DNA from: Lachnospiraceae bacterium
GTDB lineage: Bacteria > Bacillota > Clostridia > Lachnospirales > Lachnospiraceae
NCBI GenBank assembly: GCA_014804355.1
Contig: JAAUZY010000043.1
Coordinates: forward strand, 68,586-125,893
Direction of reading: 5' to 3'
DNA length: 57,308 bases
Shown here: positions 40,488-47,116 of the stretch, in pieces
Layout of the letters: the number at the start of each line of letters is the position of its first letter
Position numbering within the stretch: the first letter of the stretch is position 1
Notes under the pieces: model-generated
Told to the model about the DNA's origin: nothing
The model's database searches: none
The model's input: the letters and a program-made list of their open reading frames with translations, nothing else
Program-made: the position numbers and the translations under genes

Positions 40488-40520
40488 AAAAATGCCCCGC
40501 CGTTTCCGACAGGGCATTTT
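40488..40520 (-). terminator. Rho-independent terminator of the SPFH-TIR operon
   Basis: On the minus strand AAAATGCCC pairs with GGGCATTTTT and leads into TATTTATTT. It lies three bases after the stop of the 33-residue membrane protein gene and well before the next gene, so it closes the operon that starts near 46919. Confidence 0.85.
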
Positions 40521-40523
40521 CGT

Positions 40524-40625
40524 TTACTTATCACCATCTTTTTTCTTCTTAATGTTCCTGATAATACAGACTGCCGCGATTGCGATAAAAGCAACGGTGA
40601 TAACTACTTCAAATATCTCGTACAT
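40524..40625 (-). CDS. 33-residue single-pass membrane peptide
   Basis: The reading frame gives 33 residues starting MYEIFEVVITVAF, with a hydrophobic helix (about 6-22) and a basic tail RNIKKKKDGDK, so an N-out, C-in membrane peptide is expected. AAGGAGG stands eight bases before the ATG, an unusually good site for so short a frame, and the terminator follows directly. It is the last gene of the SPFH-TIR unit, 82 bp after the DUF1266 lipoprotein. It is not recognised by family. A toxin-like or regulatory peptide is possible. Confidence 0.7.
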   Translation of the reverse strand: MYEIFEVVITVAFIAIAAVCIIRNIKKKKDGDK

Positions 40626-40707
40626 TTCTCTTCCCTCCTTATCTTAAGCGGTTTAAACTGATCCGCTTTATTCCTATGCCTTAATCTGATTGATTAACAA
40701 AAATCTC

Positions 40708-41913
40708 CTACCACGTTTTCTCAAATGTCATTCCCCACTCTAACTGAAACGGGCTGTCAGAAGCCGCTTTGATTTCTTCATAAATCCCGCGCCGCTCATC
40801 ACTACTCTCCTCTGCCCAATATTCATATCCTACAAAATAACTTTCCATAAGGCTATCCCACGAATCAAAGGTATTCTGGATAACCTCCGCGGTCTCCAGC
40901 GACTTATCTAAAGCCTCTTCTTCGGTATAGTATCCCGCGAGATAATAGTATCCCAGAAGCGACATCGCACGGCTGTAATCCCATCCTGCCGCAGCGTCTG
41001 AACCATACTGTTCATATAAAGCGAACCAATCTACGTAATTCTGCGCCTCCTCCTCACTTACATCAAAGTTCTCAAGAATCAGGTCAACCCTCTCAGCTTC
41101 GGAAGCATCCGCGAGCCCGGCTTCTGCCAATATGTCCATCTCTTCTGCAAAAGAGACACGGTGTCCTTCTGTTAAAAGCCAGTCCATTGTCTCCTCCGCT
41201 GTTTCATGATCTGTAACATCCCACCACTCGCTCAGAAGGTTCTGAACCATACTTTTACTGTTATCATCTGCAGGCGCCCCGCCAAACAAAGTGTAATCCC
41301 AACGGTTAGCTGCTGTCAGAACAGCACATGTATTATTAAACCATTGAATCGTATCTGTACTTTCCATTGCTGATGCTTCTTCAATTTCCGGAGCATTCTC
41401 CTTAAATGAACCACATACATTATTAAAATATTCTATCTCTGCAGTATTCATTTTGATAGCTACATATAAAATGCTGTAATAGGCATACTCTGTCTCACCG
41501 TACAGAATACGTCCATTGCCACTGATATCTTCAATAGTCACTGTACAACTATAGGTTTCCGCCACATCCATATCCGGAACGGACGGATTATCAATCAATG
41601 TCATTTCTGACATCGGATAGGAAGCGTTTATCATATCTTTCCAATTATCCATGTCAATAACATTTGCACCATAAATATTTTTTGCCATCTGCATAACCAT
41701 AACCGCCTCAGAATCATCTTCGCTGGCTGCCGCAATCCAGCCCTCAGCTCCGGTTCCTATATCTTCCTGCTTCCATTTCTCATTCAACTGAATACTTACG
41801 GTTTCATCCTCAGAAGTAAATTCCTTCATAACTACCTCTTTGTTACCGCATCCTGCAAGCATCAATGCAAGCATTATGGCAGCTGCTATTACGTTTCTCG
41901 TCATCCTTTTCAT
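40708..41913 (-). CDS. Lipoprotein with a C-terminal DUF1266-like domain
   Basis: The 401-residue protein starts with a lipoprotein signal (LALMLAGCGNK, Cys22). The N-terminal half (25-180) is a mixed alpha/beta domain of unknown type (VSIQLNEKWKQEDIG, GWIAAASEDDSE). The C-terminal half (about 190-400) has NRWDYTLFGG, WWDVTDHETAEETMDWLL, GWDYSRAMSLLGYYYLAGY and TFDSWDSLMESYFVGYEYW, the DUF1266 pattern. It should sit on the outer face of the membrane. It follows the TIR-LRR gene by 54 bp, so it may be the outer component of the same system. Confidence 0.8.
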   Translation of the reverse strand: MKRMTRNVIAAAIMLALMLAGCGNKEVVMKEFTSEDETVSIQLNEKWKQEDIGTGAEGWIAAASEDDSEAVMVMQMAKNIYGANVIDMDNWKDMINASYPMSEMTLIDNPSVPDMDVAETYSCTVTIEDISGNGRILYGETEYAYYSILYVAIKMNTAEIEYFNNVCGSFKENAPEIEEASAMESTDTIQWFNNTCAVLTAANRWDYTLFGGAPADDNSKSMVQNLLSEWWDVTDHETAEETMDWLLTEGHRVSFAEEMDILAEAGLADASEAERVDLILENFDVSEEEAQNYVDWFALYEQYGSDAAAGWDYSRAMSLLGYYYLAGYYTEEEALDKSLETAEVIQNTFDSWDSLMESYFVGYEYWAEESSDERRGIYEEIKAASDSPFQLEWGMTFEKTW

Positions 41914-41967
41914 AAATACACCTTTTCCTTTCTTATTGAGTTTTGTTTATAATCCTTCATTAATTGC

Positions 41968-44736
41968 CTATTCTTTCTCTAATTCCGTGATAACCACCAC
42001 AGAATCCCGAAACACATTTTCGTTTTCAATCGGATTACTTGCACAAATTACCTTTTTCAATGAAGGCAGTTCGGCAAGCGGTTTCAGATCTGTAATATAA
42101 TTCTCTGAAATATCCAGGATTTCCAAAGAAGACATTCCTACCGCAAAGTTAAGATCCGTCAATCCGTCTTCACTCAAATATAATTCCTTAAGTTCCGGAA
42201 ATTTTTTAAGAAAATCTATATGTTCATCCAATGCTACTTCATCCCAGCCTCCGGTTATCACTCCGTATGTACGCTCAAACCACGCATTTGTAATCAGATT
42301 AATATCATTCATATGTAAGATTTCCAATCTGGAATTTTCAACAACAGCATCAAAATCTATTTCGCAGTACATACCACTGATATCTAATTCTTTAAGGTTT
42401 GGCATTCGGAAGACTCCCGATATATCGTCGTAACATTTTGAACCTTGAATATCCAAAATTTCCAACGTTTGAAAGGCTTCTATATCAGCAATTCTTATTT
42501 CATTTGCAACACTGTGGTCATAGGAAAGTTTCTTGAGTGAAACTAAATTCGACAAATCTACTCCTTTCGGCAAATCACAATAAATTAAGTTAAGCTCTGT
42601 CAAATTAGTCATATTCTCGATAAAGGAACAGTCTTCAAAACCATTAAGCGTCAGCTTTCTTAATTCTGTCAGATTACCTAATTTCGGTTCGGGACAGCCG
42701 TAAGGTACTTCCAAAGAAAGTTCCTGTAAATTTATCAGCTCCGATACCGCACTCATCTCTTTTAATTCCATACATCCAGAAATCGACAAACACCTTAATG
42801 TCTCGCACTCCTCCAATCCGTAGAGGGCGTTCAGCTTTCCCCATTCAATTTTCAATGTATCCAGATGTTTCAAGCTGCTGACAAATTTAATAGACCTTAG
42901 CCCATCTGCATCCAAATACAATTTTTCCAAATCCTGAAGTTTTCCAAGAACTGAAAAATCTGTCAGATTTTCATCACTATCCAAAAAAAGGTTTTTCAAA
43001 TGTTTTACATGTATCAGCATGTCAATATTGTCAAGTTCACAATATCCAATATACAACGTCTCTAAATTTTCAAATGCCCCAATTCCATTCAGATTTTTCA
43101 CGCTGCCATTAAACCCTAATTCCCTGACCGTTCCCGGATCATCCAGTATATTCGCAGCTTGTGCCGGATTCGCAAAATAAGCGCTGACACTCTCCAATGA
43201 CAGCCCTTTAATATCTTCTAAATCAGTCACAGCTCCTACATCCAATTTTTTCAGATTAGAAAACCGACATAGACCGCGTAAACTAATACTCTCCTCATCA
43301 AAAAAAGTCATCCACACGAGACCATCTCCGAAATCATCCGCTTCAAAACCTTTGATCGAATTGTCCGTCGGCGGTTTAAAACTGTATCCAATCTCCCACC
43401 GTTCATGATCGTGCTTTATAATAAGCTGTTGCATCTTTGCCAACTGACTTTCAGGGACATCTTTTGCCGGACGTTTATACACACTGGAAACAAACTCTTC
43501 CATTACACCGGTAAAATCAGCAACTTCCTGCGTTTGATCTGTCTGTTCTACACTTGGAGCGGTGAAGGTCTCTTTTGCTGTCTCTTCCTCATTTTTTGTT
43601 TCATCTATTAATGGCGCTAAATTTTTCTCATAAGATGCTCGTAGCTGCTTATAATTGTTCACGACATCTATCAGCGCAATTGCCGAAACCAGAATGATCC
43701 CTAGCACAATGGCTGTTTTTCTTCCCTTACTTTCCTTTTTATGCGTTTCATGCTCTATAGGAATCGGGATTTTAGTTTCTTGTTGAGCCATCGTGGCCTC
43801 TGTATTCCGGCTTACGGTTTCTCTTATTCCATTCCATGTGTCATCGCCAAAAATCTTGTTGACTCCATAAATCAGATCCTGTACAAATCCCAGTCTCGAC
43901 ATATCCAGTGCCTGTAAATGGGAAAATTCTTTCGGCAAATCATAAGGGTCCATATCCCGATATGCCGGAATTAATACTTTTTTCTCCCCACGTTTAATCA
44001 GAGAGAGATACCTGCTCCATTCATTTTTAACCCAGGTTGCCTGAATATTTTCCGGCGAAGTTCCGACAACGATCATAGCCCTGGCAGAGTGGAGCGTAGC
44101 AAAAATATATGGTTCATAGGCTGCACCCGGTTTATCCTGCAGTGTGATCCTGGCAAAAAATACCTTGAAATTATTGCGTATCAGTTGGTAATATAGTTCG
44201 TCGGCCAGTACACTGTCTCTTGTCCTGTTTCCGTTTTCATCCGTTTCCTTACAGCAGATAAAAATATCATAAGGCGTTTCTCTCTGTGATACCTGAAGAA
44301 TGCCCCTTTGGATCGTATCGATAACTTTTGCTTCCTGTTCATAGATTCCTGCCTGAACTGCGTCGGCATATCGAAGAGCCGCCTTGTAATCCTCATCTGC
44401 CAGAATCGATGTATACTGTGCCCGATTGACAGTGGGAATCTTCTTATGCGTCGCCGGATCATCCACATACTCTATTCCGTAGCGGCATAGGACAATTCCC
44501 CAGTAAGCCTCGCTGTCTGCCTGATCTTCTTCAAGAATATGCTCATACACCGCCATCGCTTTATCATAATCGTTACTTCGCCTATAATGATTCGCCCGGT
44601 CATACAGCCTAAGGCGTTTTTCATCATCAAACTTCGGCAGTGTCTGATTCGTTCCGCAATAAGGGCATCTTACGGTTGTCATACCCTCTTTGATCTCCAG
44701 ATCACCGCCGCACATTTTACATATCAATACAGACAT
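41968..44736 (-). CDS. Zinc ribbon-TIR-transmembrane-LRR protein
   Basis: The 922-residue protein has a zinc ribbon (C6, C9, C24, C27), a helical TPR-like region (40-145) and a TIR domain (155-275) starting YDIFICCKETDENGNRT, with RITLQDKPGAAYEPYIFATL. Glu208 in AYEPY aligns with the catalytic Glu of SARM1-type NADases. A membrane helix follows (340-360), then a spacer and about 15 leucine-rich repeats (490-905). There is no signal peptide, so TIR is inside and the repeats should be outside. GAGGAG stands ten bases before the ATG. The TIR family is widespread; its link to LRRs is unusual. Confidence 0.9.
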   Translation of the reverse strand: MSVLICKMCGGDLEIKEGMTTVRCPYCGTNQTLPKFDDEKRLRLYDRANHYRRSNDYDKAMAVYEHILEEDQADSEAYWGIVLCRYGIEYVDDPATHKKIPTVNRAQYTSILADEDYKAALRYADAVQAGIYEQEAKVIDTIQRGILQVSQRETPYDIFICCKETDENGNRTRDSVLADELYYQLIRNNFKVFFARITLQDKPGAAYEPYIFATLHSARAMIVVGTSPENIQATWVKNEWSRYLSLIKRGEKKVLIPAYRDMDPYDLPKEFSHLQALDMSRLGFVQDLIYGVNKIFGDDTWNGIRETVSRNTEATMAQQETKIPIPIEHETHKKESKGRKTAIVLGIILVSAIALIDVVNNYKQLRASYEKNLAPLIDETKNEEETAKETFTAPSVEQTDQTQEVADFTGVMEEFVSSVYKRPAKDVPESQLAKMQQLIIKHDHERWEIGYSFKPPTDNSIKGFEADDFGDGLVWMTFFDEESISLRGLCRFSNLKKLDVGAVTDLEDIKGLSLESVSAYFANPAQAANILDDPGTVRELGFNGSVKNLNGIGAFENLETLYIGYCELDNIDMLIHVKHLKNLFLDSDENLTDFSVLGKLQDLEKLYLDADGLRSIKFVSSLKHLDTLKIEWGKLNALYGLEECETLRCLSISGCMELKEMSAVSELINLQELSLEVPYGCPEPKLGNLTELRKLTLNGFEDCSFIENMTNLTELNLIYCDLPKGVDLSNLVSLKKLSYDHSVANEIRIADIEAFQTLEILDIQGSKCYDDISGVFRMPNLKELDISGMYCEIDFDAVVENSRLEILHMNDINLITNAWFERTYGVITGGWDEVALDEHIDFLKKFPELKELYLSEDGLTDLNFAVGMSSLEILDISENYITDLKPLAELPSLKKVICASNPIENENVFRDSVVVITELEKE

Positions 44737-44750
44737 TTTCTATGCTCTCC

Positions 44751-45437
44751 TCATTTGCCGTACTTGCATATTCTGTCTCTTTCTCGTAGTAATCCCGTTA
44801 TTCGTTCGCACAGACCGGAAGTACTCTCTGTATTCCCATCAAGCGCTGCTGCCTCTATCTCTGTAAATAGAACCGAAATTTCCTCCTCAATCTCCTCCGT
44901 GATCCCTTTGGATAAAGGATTGCTGTAATGGATTTCTTCCGCCAGCTTATGCAGTATCTCCTGAATCTGCGCTTCCTCGCATTGACTGATCAGCAAATTT
45001 GCCCGCGACTGTAATTCCTTCATTTTTATCAATTCTTCTTCAAGCTCTGCATCCTGCCGGAACACCTCTGTCCGCGCCGCCCTCACAACAAAAAATCCCA
45101 TAACCGCCACGGCCAGAATCACCATCTCTATCAGCACCGCTGCAAAGACAGGAATCTTTACGGAAAACCCCATCAGAATCAGGCTTGCTGCTATCTGCAC
45201 GATCAAGTACAGCACGCTGTTTCTGAGCATGGGGAAATCATATACTCTATCCTTTATAAGCGCCTGACCTTTCGCCATTTCATACAGCGTATAGACCTGC
45301 ATTAATATTGCGATTACAGAAAAAAAATAGGCAGTCCGGAACACAATATTTTTGGCAAACGGTATCGTAGCTATATTGTAAATAAGGAAAACAAAAGCAA
45401 TCAGAATATAACCCCGCAAATATTTTTTCCTGTTCAT
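44751..45437 (-). CDS. Four-pass membrane protein with cytoplasmic coiled coil
   Basis: The family is not recognised. The 228-residue product has membrane segments near 8-25, 32-50, 73-90 and 95-118, then a charged helical, coiled-coil-prone domain (120-228: ELEEELIKMKELQSRANLL). It begins five bases after the SPFH stop and ends 14 bp before the TIR-LRR start, so it is translated together with both. A membrane adaptor joining SPFH scaffold and TIR protein is a reasonable guess, not shown by sequence. Confidence 0.75.
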   Translation of the reverse strand: MNRKKYLRGYILIAFVFLIYNIATIPFAKNIVFRTAYFFSVIAILMQVYTLYEMAKGQALIKDRVYDFPMLRNSVLYLIVQIAASLILMGFSVKIPVFAAVLIEMVILAVAVMGFFVVRAARTEVFRQDAELEEELIKMKELQSRANLLISQCEEAQIQEILHKLAEEIHYSNPLSKGITEEIEEEISVLFTEIEAAALDGNTESTSGLCERITGLLRERDRICKYGK

Positions 45438-45442
45438 GTTCT

Positions 45443-46693
45443 CTATTCGCTCCTTTTTCTGCCACAGTTACTGCAGAAATTACCGGTATTCCCGGACTGA
45501 CCGCAAGGACAGTTCCAAGTCGTCTGTAACATTTCACCCATTGCCTGTCCCATCTCTACACCTTCTTTAGCCAACGGAGACAAAGCGTCCTTAGTCATAT
45601 TCATAACACCGCCCATGGCCCCCAGTCCTACACCGAGTCCGGCCAGGTCTCCCAGCGCCGATGTTGTGCCTGCGCCGTTTGCAATGCCGTTTTTCATGGC
45701 TTCCATTCCTACCAGACGGGATGTTTCCTGCTGATAAGTATATCCCTTCATCTGCATTTCCGCTGCCTCCGCAGCCGCCTGCATCTTATATCCTTCCGCC
45801 TCTGCACTCTTCTGAATCTTCAGGATTTCCGCACTGCCCTGTGCCTCTATGACCTTAAGCCGCACCTCCGTCTGTGCTTCTACCGCCTTACGCTCCGCCG
45901 CCGCTTCCGCTTCCTTACGTCTGATTTCTTCCTGTTTAACGAGAAGATACTGCTGCGCATACTGCTCTTTCATCCGGCGATAATTCGGATCATCATCCGG
46001 CGTGATCACCCGATTAATAAAAAAGTCCGGCATAATTAATCCGTACTCTTCAAACATACCGTTGATCTTTGTTTTCAAAATATCAGAAAGACGTAAAAGT
46101 TCCGCATCAATCTCTAAAATACTGATATTTTCTTCTTTAATAATCTGAGCCAGGCTGCTTTTCACCTGTGTTATCACCAGAGATTGAAAATACCCTTTCT
46201 CTCCGTTTTCACCAATCAGATTTCCCCGATCAAAACCGGACGCAGTGCCGATAACCTTCAACAATAATTTTCTGGAATTGCTTACACGAATGTTGAACTC
46301 TCCGCATGCGCCGATTTCTATAGGCATCCCGGAATGCGGCTCTAAAAAGCGAATTTTAGAATCCGTCCCCCATTTAATCCCCATCTGTGTCGCCAGATTA
46401 ATATAATATATTTCTGAATGAAAAGTTCTCTCCGTGTCAGAGGGAAGTTTGAAAAACTGATCCAACAGCGGAAGTCTCTGGGTTTCCAGTGTATAACGTC
46501 CCGCTCCAAATACGTCTAATGCTCGCCCATCCTTGAAAAATACGGCTTCCTGGCTTTCATGGACAATCAACTGCGTACCCATCTTAAAATCTTCTGTCGG
46601 ATGCTTCCATACAAGTGTTTCATTGTCCTCATCATATTTGATAATACTTACAAGACCTTCTCTCTTTATCTGCTGATTCATACCAGTCCGCAA
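45443..46693 (-). CDS. SPFH/band 7 (flotillin-like) protein with C-terminal zinc ribbon
   Basis: The protein has 416 residues from a TTG start. The SPFH core occupies about 25-260 (VIHESQEAVFFKDGRAL, INLATQMGIKWGTDSKI, VKSSLAQIIKEENISI), followed by an Ala/Glu-rich coiled coil (265-325) typical of flotillins, a Gly-rich stretch and a zinc ribbon (CPCGQSGNTGNFCSNCG). It lacks an N-terminal membrane helix, so it would assemble on the membrane through partners. TTG at 46693 is three bases from AAGGAG, and ATG at 46681 is 15 bases away. The start is therefore uncertain. It is the first structural gene after the RHH regulator. Confidence 0.85.
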   Translation of the reverse strand: MRTGMNQQIKREGLVSIIKYDEDNETLVWKHPTEDFKMGTQLIVHESQEAVFFKDGRALDVFGAGRYTLETQRLPLLDQFFKLPSDTERTFHSEIYYINLATQMGIKWGTDSKIRFLEPHSGMPIEIGACGEFNIRVSNSRKLLLKVIGTASGFDRGNLIGENGEKGYFQSLVITQVKSSLAQIIKEENISILEIDAELLRLSDILKTKINGMFEEYGLIMPDFFINRVITPDDDPNYRRMKEQYAQQYLLVKQEEIRRKEAEAAAERKAVEAQTEVRLKVIEAQGSAEILKIQKSAEAEGYKMQAAAEAAEMQMKGYTYQQETSRLVGMEAMKNGIANGAGTTSALGDLAGLGVGLGAMGGVMNMTKDALSPLAKEGVEMGQAMGEMLQTTWNCPCGQSGNTGNFCSNCGRKRSE

Positions 46694-46702
46694 TTTCTCC
46701 TT

Positions 46703-46891
46703 TTAATCTTCTATAACCATATTCTGCAATGCAAATTCCAGACAGAGCTGCATAATCTCATTGCGGGTTCTTCCGGTCTCTTTGGCAACCCGATCTACCT
46801 CTACCAACATATCAATAGGCATTCTCATGGAAATAACCTTGGATTCGCTTGTATATTTCTGCGGATGAATAACGAGTTTTTTCTCTCCCAA
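46703..46891 (-). CDS. Ribbon-helix-helix DNA-binding protein
   Basis: The 62-residue protein has a beta strand (KVISMRMPIDML) followed by two helices (VDRVAKETGRT, NEIMQLCLEFALQNM), the CopG/Arc fold. The frame begins with TTG, eight bases after GGAGGG; no ATG is available. It starts the operon and ends nine bases before the SPFH start. The promoter upstream overlaps inverted GAATAC/GTATTC half-sites, so self-repression of the whole SPFH-TIR unit is likely. Confidence 0.82.
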   Translation of the reverse strand: MGEKKLVIHPQKYTSESKVISMRMPIDMLVEVDRVAKETGRTRNEIMQLCLEFALQNMVIED

Positions 46892-46911
46892 AATATGTAC
46901 CCTCCATTAGT

Positions 46912-46947
46912 GAATACTATTATAATACAAATGTATTCTTGCGTCAA
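46912..46947 (-). promoter_or_regulatory. Sigma-A promoter and probable RHH operator of the SPFH-TIR operon
   Basis: On the minus strand TTGACG (46947-46942) and an exact TATAAT (46924-46919) are 17 bases apart. Overlapping them are inverted repeats: GAATAC (46912-46917) with GTATTC (46933-46938), and AATAC with GTATT around four bases (46924-46937). A dimeric repressor bound here would block RNA polymerase directly. The RHH protein encoded first in the operon is the natural candidate. Confidence 0.75.
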
Positions 46948-47020
46948 CTGTGCATACATTACTCTATCCGAGGAAACATATTAGAGATTATTTTTCATAC
47001 CGATCCCACAACCTAAGCTC

Positions 47021-47116
47021 AGAGGGCACCCTTCAAGTCATTTCAAGACTTGGAGGATGCCCTCTTTTATTTTATAAGTTTTCCGTAAAAATACTACGCC
47101 ACATCGTTATCATAAA
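47021..47116. repeat. Repeat R1: hairpin plus 41-base conserved core
   Basis: AGAGGGCA and TGCCCTCT close an 18-pair imperfect stem (47021-47064). A core at 47076-47116 contains GTTTTCCGTAAAAATACTA and differs at four of 41 positions, all transitions, from the core of R2 at 49246-49286. R1 lies eight bases after the stop of the S51 peptidase gene. Confidence 0.7.

Follow-up and report, generated by a model that had tools for sequence, protein, structure and literature searches.

Within a 57,308-nucleotide stretch of Lachnospiraceae DNA (contig JAAUZY010000043.1; the whole stretch is called the window here), a six-gene operon encodes what we tentatively interpret, with confidence a little short of even, as a membrane receptor-signaling complex. 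The proposed receptor is a TIR protein with a leucine-rich repeat (LRR) outer domain and a putative NADase activity, and its proposed platform consists of an SPFH protein and a membrane protein with four hydrophobic segments, called TM4. The six open reading frames (ORFs) all lie on the minus strand, in the order given by an earlier sequence-only reading of this DNA and with intergenic gaps of 5-82 nt; the single operon, its promoter with a dyad, and its terminator were each located where that reading had placed them. The features are as follows (TM, transmembrane; RHH, ribbon-helix-helix):

46947-46919 (part 46912..46947), minus strand: putative promoter TTGACG-17-TATAAT, with 11/12 consensus matches
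46912-46938, minus strand: dyad GAATAC...GTATTC, overlapping the promoter
46926-46935, minus strand: core TACATTTGTA, between -35 and -10
46703..46891, minus strand: RHH (Arc/CopG-like) regulator, 62 residues, TTG start, putative autorepressor (weak matches; tblastn relatives)
45443..46681, minus strand: SPFH (Band_7_1) protein, ATG at 46681, C-terminal zinc ribbon (PF13421, 1.3e-35)
44751..45437, minus strand: TM4, 228 residues, four hydrophobic segments and a helical cytoplasmic tail (hydropathy, synteny)
41968..44736, minus strand: zinc ribbon-TPR-TIR-TM-LRR protein, 922 residues (domain matches, structure model)
44635..44736, minus strand: its N-terminal zinc ribbon, Cys 6, 9, 24 and 27 (alignment of relatives)
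43843..44280, minus strand: its TIR domain, residues 153-298 (TIR_2, PF13676, 6.2e-9)
44020-44022, minus strand: codon of glutamate E239 of WVKNEW (alignment, structural comparison)
43660..43716, minus strand: its single TM helix, residues 341-359, with five K/R before and three after (hydropathy and charge)
42022..43299, minus strand: its LRR domain, residues ~480-905, internalin-like, predicted extracellular (LRR_4, 6.1e-22)
40708..41913, minus strand: DUF1266 lipoprotein, 401 residues, accessory, with a preceding lipobox (PF06889, 3.5e-28)
40524..40625, minus strand: 33-residue single-TM peptide, accessory (weak PF12669 match, 8.8e-4, under the cut-off)
40488..40521, minus strand: intrinsic terminator with a 15-pair stem (pattern search)

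All of the parts listed by the sequence-only reading are present, including the zinc ribbon, TIR domain, TM helix and LRR of the largest protein. It had overlooked the TPR-like helices between the zinc ribbon and the TIR domain, as well as the receptor topology, the exchangeable outer domain and a resemblance to the YdjI system of Bacillus subtilis. The four zinc-ribbon cysteines are invariant across 61 aligned relatives. A Pfam scan placed TM4 in no family above the cut-off, and the RHH regulator gave weak Pfam matches to Arc (0.0054) and BrnA antitoxin (4.1e-5), both under the cut-off.

A receptor-like layout is predicted across much of the family. Among 129 distinct proteins (132 rows minus three contained copies), 87 have one predicted TM segment, which lies after the TIR motif in 82 of them; the N-terminal flank of the segment is the more positive in 82 of the 87, with four ties and one reversed case, a fragment. 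From hydropathy and charge, on which the topology rests, single-pass members are mostly predicted to have the TIR domain inside and the C-terminus outside. The 78 outer parts examined carry DUF6273 (43), LRR_8 (12), BspA LRR_5 (6), RCC1_2 (6) and Listeria-Bacteroides repeats (4), categories that may overlap, and other types of outer part also occur; one LRR relative, L086 (L and G numbers denote our loci and genomes), has two TM calls and so has no outer-domain entry. According to PMC10743442, DUF6273 is similar to C-type lectin domains, which phage receptor-binding proteins employ. Structurally, the window LRR is matched best by a Roco LRR and by Listeria internalin A; TLR9 and TLR13 rank lower, among the top 50 hits to the full model, which has a mean pLDDT of 69.6 (~90 in the LRR core). 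With an enzyme-like TIR domain inside and an exchangeable recognition module outside, members of this family look like receptors.

The TIR-LRR protein was found to have the TIR fold, and the structure model of the domain is closest to NAD-cleaving TIRs. Residue E239 aligns with the glutamate of WCLDE in RPV1, the position of SARM1 E642 and RUN1 E100, and is invariant in 61 of 61 aligned relatives. We take this position to be catalytic in NAD-cleaving TIRs, consistent with structure entries titled E642A and E100A, and the alignment suggests that the window TIR may cleave NAD+. Another residue, E208, had been assumed to be the catalytic glutamate from the invariant YEPYIF, and was rejected because the SARM1 structural ranges and the RPV1 alignment place E239 there. 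The best PDB sequence match of the domain was the TIR of Toll-like receptor 15/2 (E 2.3e-4), and defense models of the Thoeris and PDC-S66 type gave weak matches in many of the 61 relatives (ThcB4 in 57, PDC-S66 in 56 and one ThsB model in 27).

The association of SPFH, TM4 and TIR genes recurs well beyond the window. Scanning named genomes yielded 78 loci, drawn from the best 80 of 561 confirmed stretches, a sample that leans toward near relatives; its record titles are mostly Lachnospiraceae, Oscillospiraceae and other Clostridia, and many name animal gut sources. Of the 77 loci used for the synteny count (L094, with no TIR ORF, was omitted), 51 have an SPFH gene on the strand of the TIR gene and at most 6 kb away from it, 48 have a TM4 gene so placed and 47 have both, and for the 38 loci with long flanks the corresponding counts are 32, 28 and 28. 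The SPFH stop is mostly at most 20 nt from the TM4 start. The order SPFH-TM4-TIR-LRR is kept in all 10 LRR-bearing relatives (L083-L092), of which the Lachnospiraceae metagenome-assembled genome (MAG) L083 is the closest among the best 80 of 561, with 97% identity in the TIR region. Within the family, TM4 was found in 20 of 299 genomes, the window's own included, and an SPFH gene directly adjoins it in 17 of the 19 others; a zinc-ribbon TIR gene is present in 10 of the 19 fetched TM4 regions, and in L025 the TIR protein is seemingly cut at the contig start. A search with the TIR region matched 24 of 200 family genomes (E 1e-3), 15 of these below 1e-40, and the TIR gene often occurs in several tandem copies. 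The same-genus genome G060 had a match in neither the TM4 nor the TIR-region search, and nine genomes in a phylum sample of 299 matched, the whole region being present only in the window genome and one genome of the same family. By tblastn, DUF1266 was found in four of the 10 LRR relatives and hits to the 33-residue peptide were limited to L083 and L084, with a variant discernible in the L085 sequence. Since DUF1266 and the peptide are confined to a few close relatives, we do not regard these two as core genes. The proposal that the six genes form one set is thereby borne out in other genomes for SPFH, TM4, TIR and RHH, and falls short for DUF1266 and the peptide.

Consensus matches alone were not above chance for either the promoter (14 vs. 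16.6 in shuffles) or the terminator (4 vs. 4.6). The pattern TACR-NN-YGTR, which was picked after the sequences had been seen, occurs in the 90 nt upstream of the RHH gene in 22 of 22 cases (the window and 21 relatives); the corresponding figures are 3 of 636 for the regions upstream of other ORFs and 0.7% for shuffled sequence. It falls fully within the -35/-10 spacer, itself found by pattern, in 16 of the 22; in the remaining six it is beside the spacer or the hexamers are unclear. The longer dyad GAATAC...GTATTC is retained in the LRR clade and is present in 11 of 22 overall. RHH relatives were identified by tblastn in 21 of 97 loci (10 of 10 LRR loci and 11 others), where they sit immediately 5' of the SPFH or TIR gene. 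It is because the motif recurs before RHH genes, and the gene order recurs in other genera, that we consider the promoter and terminator to be raised above chance, and the natural reading is that the RHH protein would repress its own promoter. A palindrome resembling the terminator lies 3' of the peptide gene in L083-L085.

The SPFH protein has no TM segment and carries two CxxC pairs at its C-terminus, and among 50 SPFH relatives, 42 lack a TM segment and 33 carry two or more CxxC pairs within their final 120 residues. In B. subtilis, the SPFH protein YdjI depends on two membrane proteins, YdjG and YdjH, both for reaching the membrane and for recruiting PspA (PMC8581546), and YdjG bears a zinc ribbon (PMC9239133). 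Both systems have an SPFH protein without a membrane anchor but with a C-terminal zinc finger, whose gene is accompanied by genes for membrane proteins, one of them a zinc-ribbon protein (YdjG in B. subtilis). The systems differ in that the zinc-ribbon protein here has a TIR and a large outer domain and the promoter is of the RHH type, not sigma-W; Pfam matched PspA to none of the six operon proteins, the scope of that search. From this similar make-up we infer that TM4 would be the anchor, by analogy of role with YdjH, the SPFH protein the organizer, and the zinc-ribbon TIR protein the client.

The layout also invites comparison with other TIR systems. Toll-like receptors likewise have an LRR outside, one TM helix and a TIR inside; however, their LRR is N-terminal and their TIR C-terminal, an order that is reversed in the window protein, and the window system has in addition a zinc ribbon, a TPR, an exchangeable outer domain and an SPFH operon. 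The window LRR is matched better by internalins than by these receptors, and the likeness does not imply common descent of the architecture. Thoeris (ThsB and type III ThcB4) and PDC-S66 are similar through the weak TIR-region matches in many relatives; Thoeris differs from the membrane receptor layout predicted here, and a Pfam search of the six proteins, and of those only, found no ThsA-type effector (SIR2-SLOG or TM-macro). Unlike the SPARTA TIR-APAZ protein and the SARM1 TIR, the window protein is membrane-anchored with an outer domain, and has neither the Argonaute/APAZ of the former nor the ARM/SAM of the latter. The claim in the sequence-only reading that no described system has this set agrees with our literature search, which found neither an SPFH-TM4-TIR operon nor LRR-TM-TIR receptors of bacteria described and had most subscription papers outside its reach; in one paper containing both "TIR domain" and "SPFH" (PMC7159879), SPFH occurs once, in a reference title.

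The outer part of the receptor may have been replaced by recombination among three close genomes, chimeric assembly being the alternative. L083 and L084 differ at only 7 of 1689 sites from residue 361 to the end, compared with 29 of 900 in residues 1-300 (p 2e-8), while the window differs from each of them at 191 of 1689 and 20 of 900 sites, respectively. Divergence is at an ordinary level, ~3-7%, in RHH-SPFH, in DUF1266 and in the gene that follows. The block common to L083 and L084 starts near window position 44,000, late in the TIR domain (~residue 245), and stops no more than ~100 nt from where the gene ends. No comparable exchange of the outer part was found between L090 and L091. The ratio of nonsynonymous to synonymous substitution (dN/dS) for the window and L083 is ~0.2 in the outer part, ~0.07 in the inner part and 0.55 in the linker; the outer part evolves faster, without overall positive selection.

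Several results weigh against a receptor-signaling complex. The exchanged block begins inside the TIR domain and the L084 TM4 has a divergent patch of its own, so the exchange was not a pure domain swap. It is a single case, drawn from three genomes of which two are MAGs whose names follow one scheme, so a chimeric assembly is possible. Positive selection on the outer domain was not found, its dN/dS being 0.14-0.23 and not >1. No TM segment was called in 28 of the 129 family proteins and two to five were called in 14 (several cut by contig ends), and the window protein has a charge margin across its TM helix of only 5 vs. 3. Proteins of the LRR clade show a weak charge bias (N-terminus inside in 7 of 11, three ties and one with two TM calls), which led us to lower our estimate for a receptor with NADase activity from even to slightly below. 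The best Foldseek match, at E 1.4e-3, does not pass 1e-3, the scores of the window TIR with the Thoeris and PDC-S66 models are marginal (0.0098 and 0.0053), and the whole operon proteins of the window had no match in PADLOC at E 0.1. The glutamate equivalent to E239 is also present in Toll-receptor TIRs, which we do not know as NADases. SPFH or TM4 is absent from 10 of the 38 fully flanked loci, and among 12 pattern stretches in viral contigs only one (L161) encodes a relative.

To these points is added the gene context. We compared 103 of 484 eligible flanking proteins, a random sample, with all 103 eligible proteins from 20 control regions using PADLOC (E 1e-10). The flanks matched 39 families, of which the 25 shown are mostly represented by one protein each and include type II and III methyltransferases, AbiEii, PDC-S10 (twice), PDC-S48, mad3 and DEDDh; the controls matched 14, including mad3 (7), mad8 (4), AriA (3), dGTPase, MzaA, two RT-related families and PycC. 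There was no clear defense excess in the flanks, and the test is weak because many of the control matches appear to be housekeeping look-alikes and the number of proteins matched is not given.

An alternative that we consider unlikely is envelope-stress surveillance of the PspA-YdjGHI kind, in which SPFH and TM4 would organize membrane repair or surveillance and the TIR would serve only as an assembly domain, with neither NAD cleavage nor defense. This would suit an SPFH protein that has a C-terminal zinc ribbon, no TM segment and a zinc-ribbon membrane partner, as described for YdjI and YdjG in the papers cited above, as well as the occurrence of SPFH-TM4 without a TIR gene in the fetched region in 9 of 19 loci (one cut just after the TIR end), the position of SPFH-TM4 in L033 and of TM4 alone in L040 beside a Vps4-like ATPase and a Snf7-like protein, and the lack of a clear defense excess in the flanks. 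However, PspA is not among the six proteins, the TIR is most like enzymatic TIRs and keeps E239 throughout, and the exchangeable lectin-like and LRR outer domains fit ligand recognition better. Quite improbable, in our estimation, is surface recognition of bacteria, kin or host molecules, with outer domains that bind neighbors or gut ligands and a TIR signal that alters behavior without killing. In its favor are the adhesin-typical outer domains (internalin-like LRR, lectin-like DUF6273), the gut sources and the allele exchange of the outer part; against it stand an operon whose sole regulator is the RHH protein and weak SIR2-like neighbors in sister loci that suggest NAD-linked conflict.

In the membrane receptor-signaling complex that we favor, the TIR-LRR protein would be a single-pass protein with its zinc ribbon, TPR-like helices and TIR in the cytoplasm and its LRR outside, the Toll plan reversed. 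An SPFH oligomer anchored by TM4 would bring together the zinc-ribbon TIR proteins, a role comparable to that of YdjH and YdjI toward PspA in Bacillus. The ligand of the outer domain could be a part of a phage, a foreign molecule, either secreted or on a surface, or damage to the envelope; it would bring the TIRs together, and the resulting cleavage of NAD+, acting through depletion or an ADP-ribose signal, would lead to a growth stop or an envelope change. Self-repression by the RHH protein would keep the receptor scarce. It is possible, if doubtful, that gut Clostridia more generally have transmembrane immune receptors of this kind, in which a TIR and interchangeable lectin-like, LRR or RCC1 ectodomains, clustered by SPFH-TM4, would sense phage or competitor surfaces and trigger an NAD+-based defense, a functional parallel to Toll-like receptors.

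To our knowledge, known bacterial TIR immune systems (Thoeris, SPARTA, Avs-like) sense infection inside the cell. If our interpretation is true, bacteria would also use TIR receptors at the cell surface, and the layout of Toll-like receptors would have arisen, or been tried, in bacteria. SPFH proteins would gain a concrete client, and how SPFH platforms switch signaling would become open to experiment through an operon with just three core genes. Members in organisms that are apparently cultured by record title, namely Anaerotignum sp. MSJ-24 (L108), Lachnospiraceae bacterium NC2008 (L150) and Ruminococcaceae bacterium YRB3002 (L093), could make the receptor family testable.

A role in defense, which the sequence-only reading suggested alongside stress sensing, is plausible, in flanks without a clear defense-island signal. 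It is suggested by the TIR kinship, the patchy distribution and the neighbors in some loci. In sister loci, zinc-ribbon TIR genes repeatedly have SIR2-like neighbors, which fall into two sequence clusters of six and four members (e.g., L026 271-1317, L037 3027-3950 and L072 2462-3346); their Pfam SIR2_2 matches are under the cut-off, and one of the three tested, that of L026, matched PADLOC SIR2 (6.9e-7). L026 also has a DUF2971 gene matching PDC-S31. In L031 (5542-12197), SPFH-TM4 is followed by a 667-residue protein with an N-terminal CxC and by a HerA-like ATPase (PF05872, 5.5e-7; PADLOC mad8, 1.4e-15), with no TIR gene.

The relative on the viral contig, L161, encodes SPFH, TM4 and a TIR protein of the DUF6273-like type, with a serine recombinase gene next to them (1234-1908, 5' of SPFH); we would guess that its 381-residue neighbor is phage-derived. 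A serine recombinase or resolvase-like gene of one cluster is also found near the operon in L024, L033, L109 and L148, and such neighbors might confer mobility or phase variation.

An ESCRT-like operon lies beside TM4 in L033 (4000-12342; G152, on a 717,765-base contig), where SPFH is also present, and in L040 (1-7403; G105). Its Vps4-like AAA ATPase matches AAA at 2.2e-39 and 1.1e-38, and, under the cut-off, Vps4_C at 0.0012 and 0.0036 (L033 and L040, respectively) and MIT at 4.7e-4 in L033. The Snf7-like protein of 194-195 residues matches Snf7 under the cut-off (4.2e-5 in L040, 0.038 in L033) and turned up in 2 of the 299 family genomes searched. The operon also encodes a coiled-coil protein and a large zinc-ribbon protein.

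Two inverted repeats were observed in and near the window operon. One, AAGCGGATCAGTTTAAACCGCTT, lies at 40640-40670 between the DUF1266 and peptide genes, is not followed by a T run, and is present in L083 and L084, with a similar one in L085; it is a possible processing or attenuation site. The other, a large repeat at 47020-47080 (GAGGGCACCCTTCAAGTC...GACTTGGAGGATGCCCTC), lies ahead of the operon promoter and probably terminates transcription of the S51-peptidase-like gene upstream. L084 has neither this gene nor the repeat at the corresponding place.
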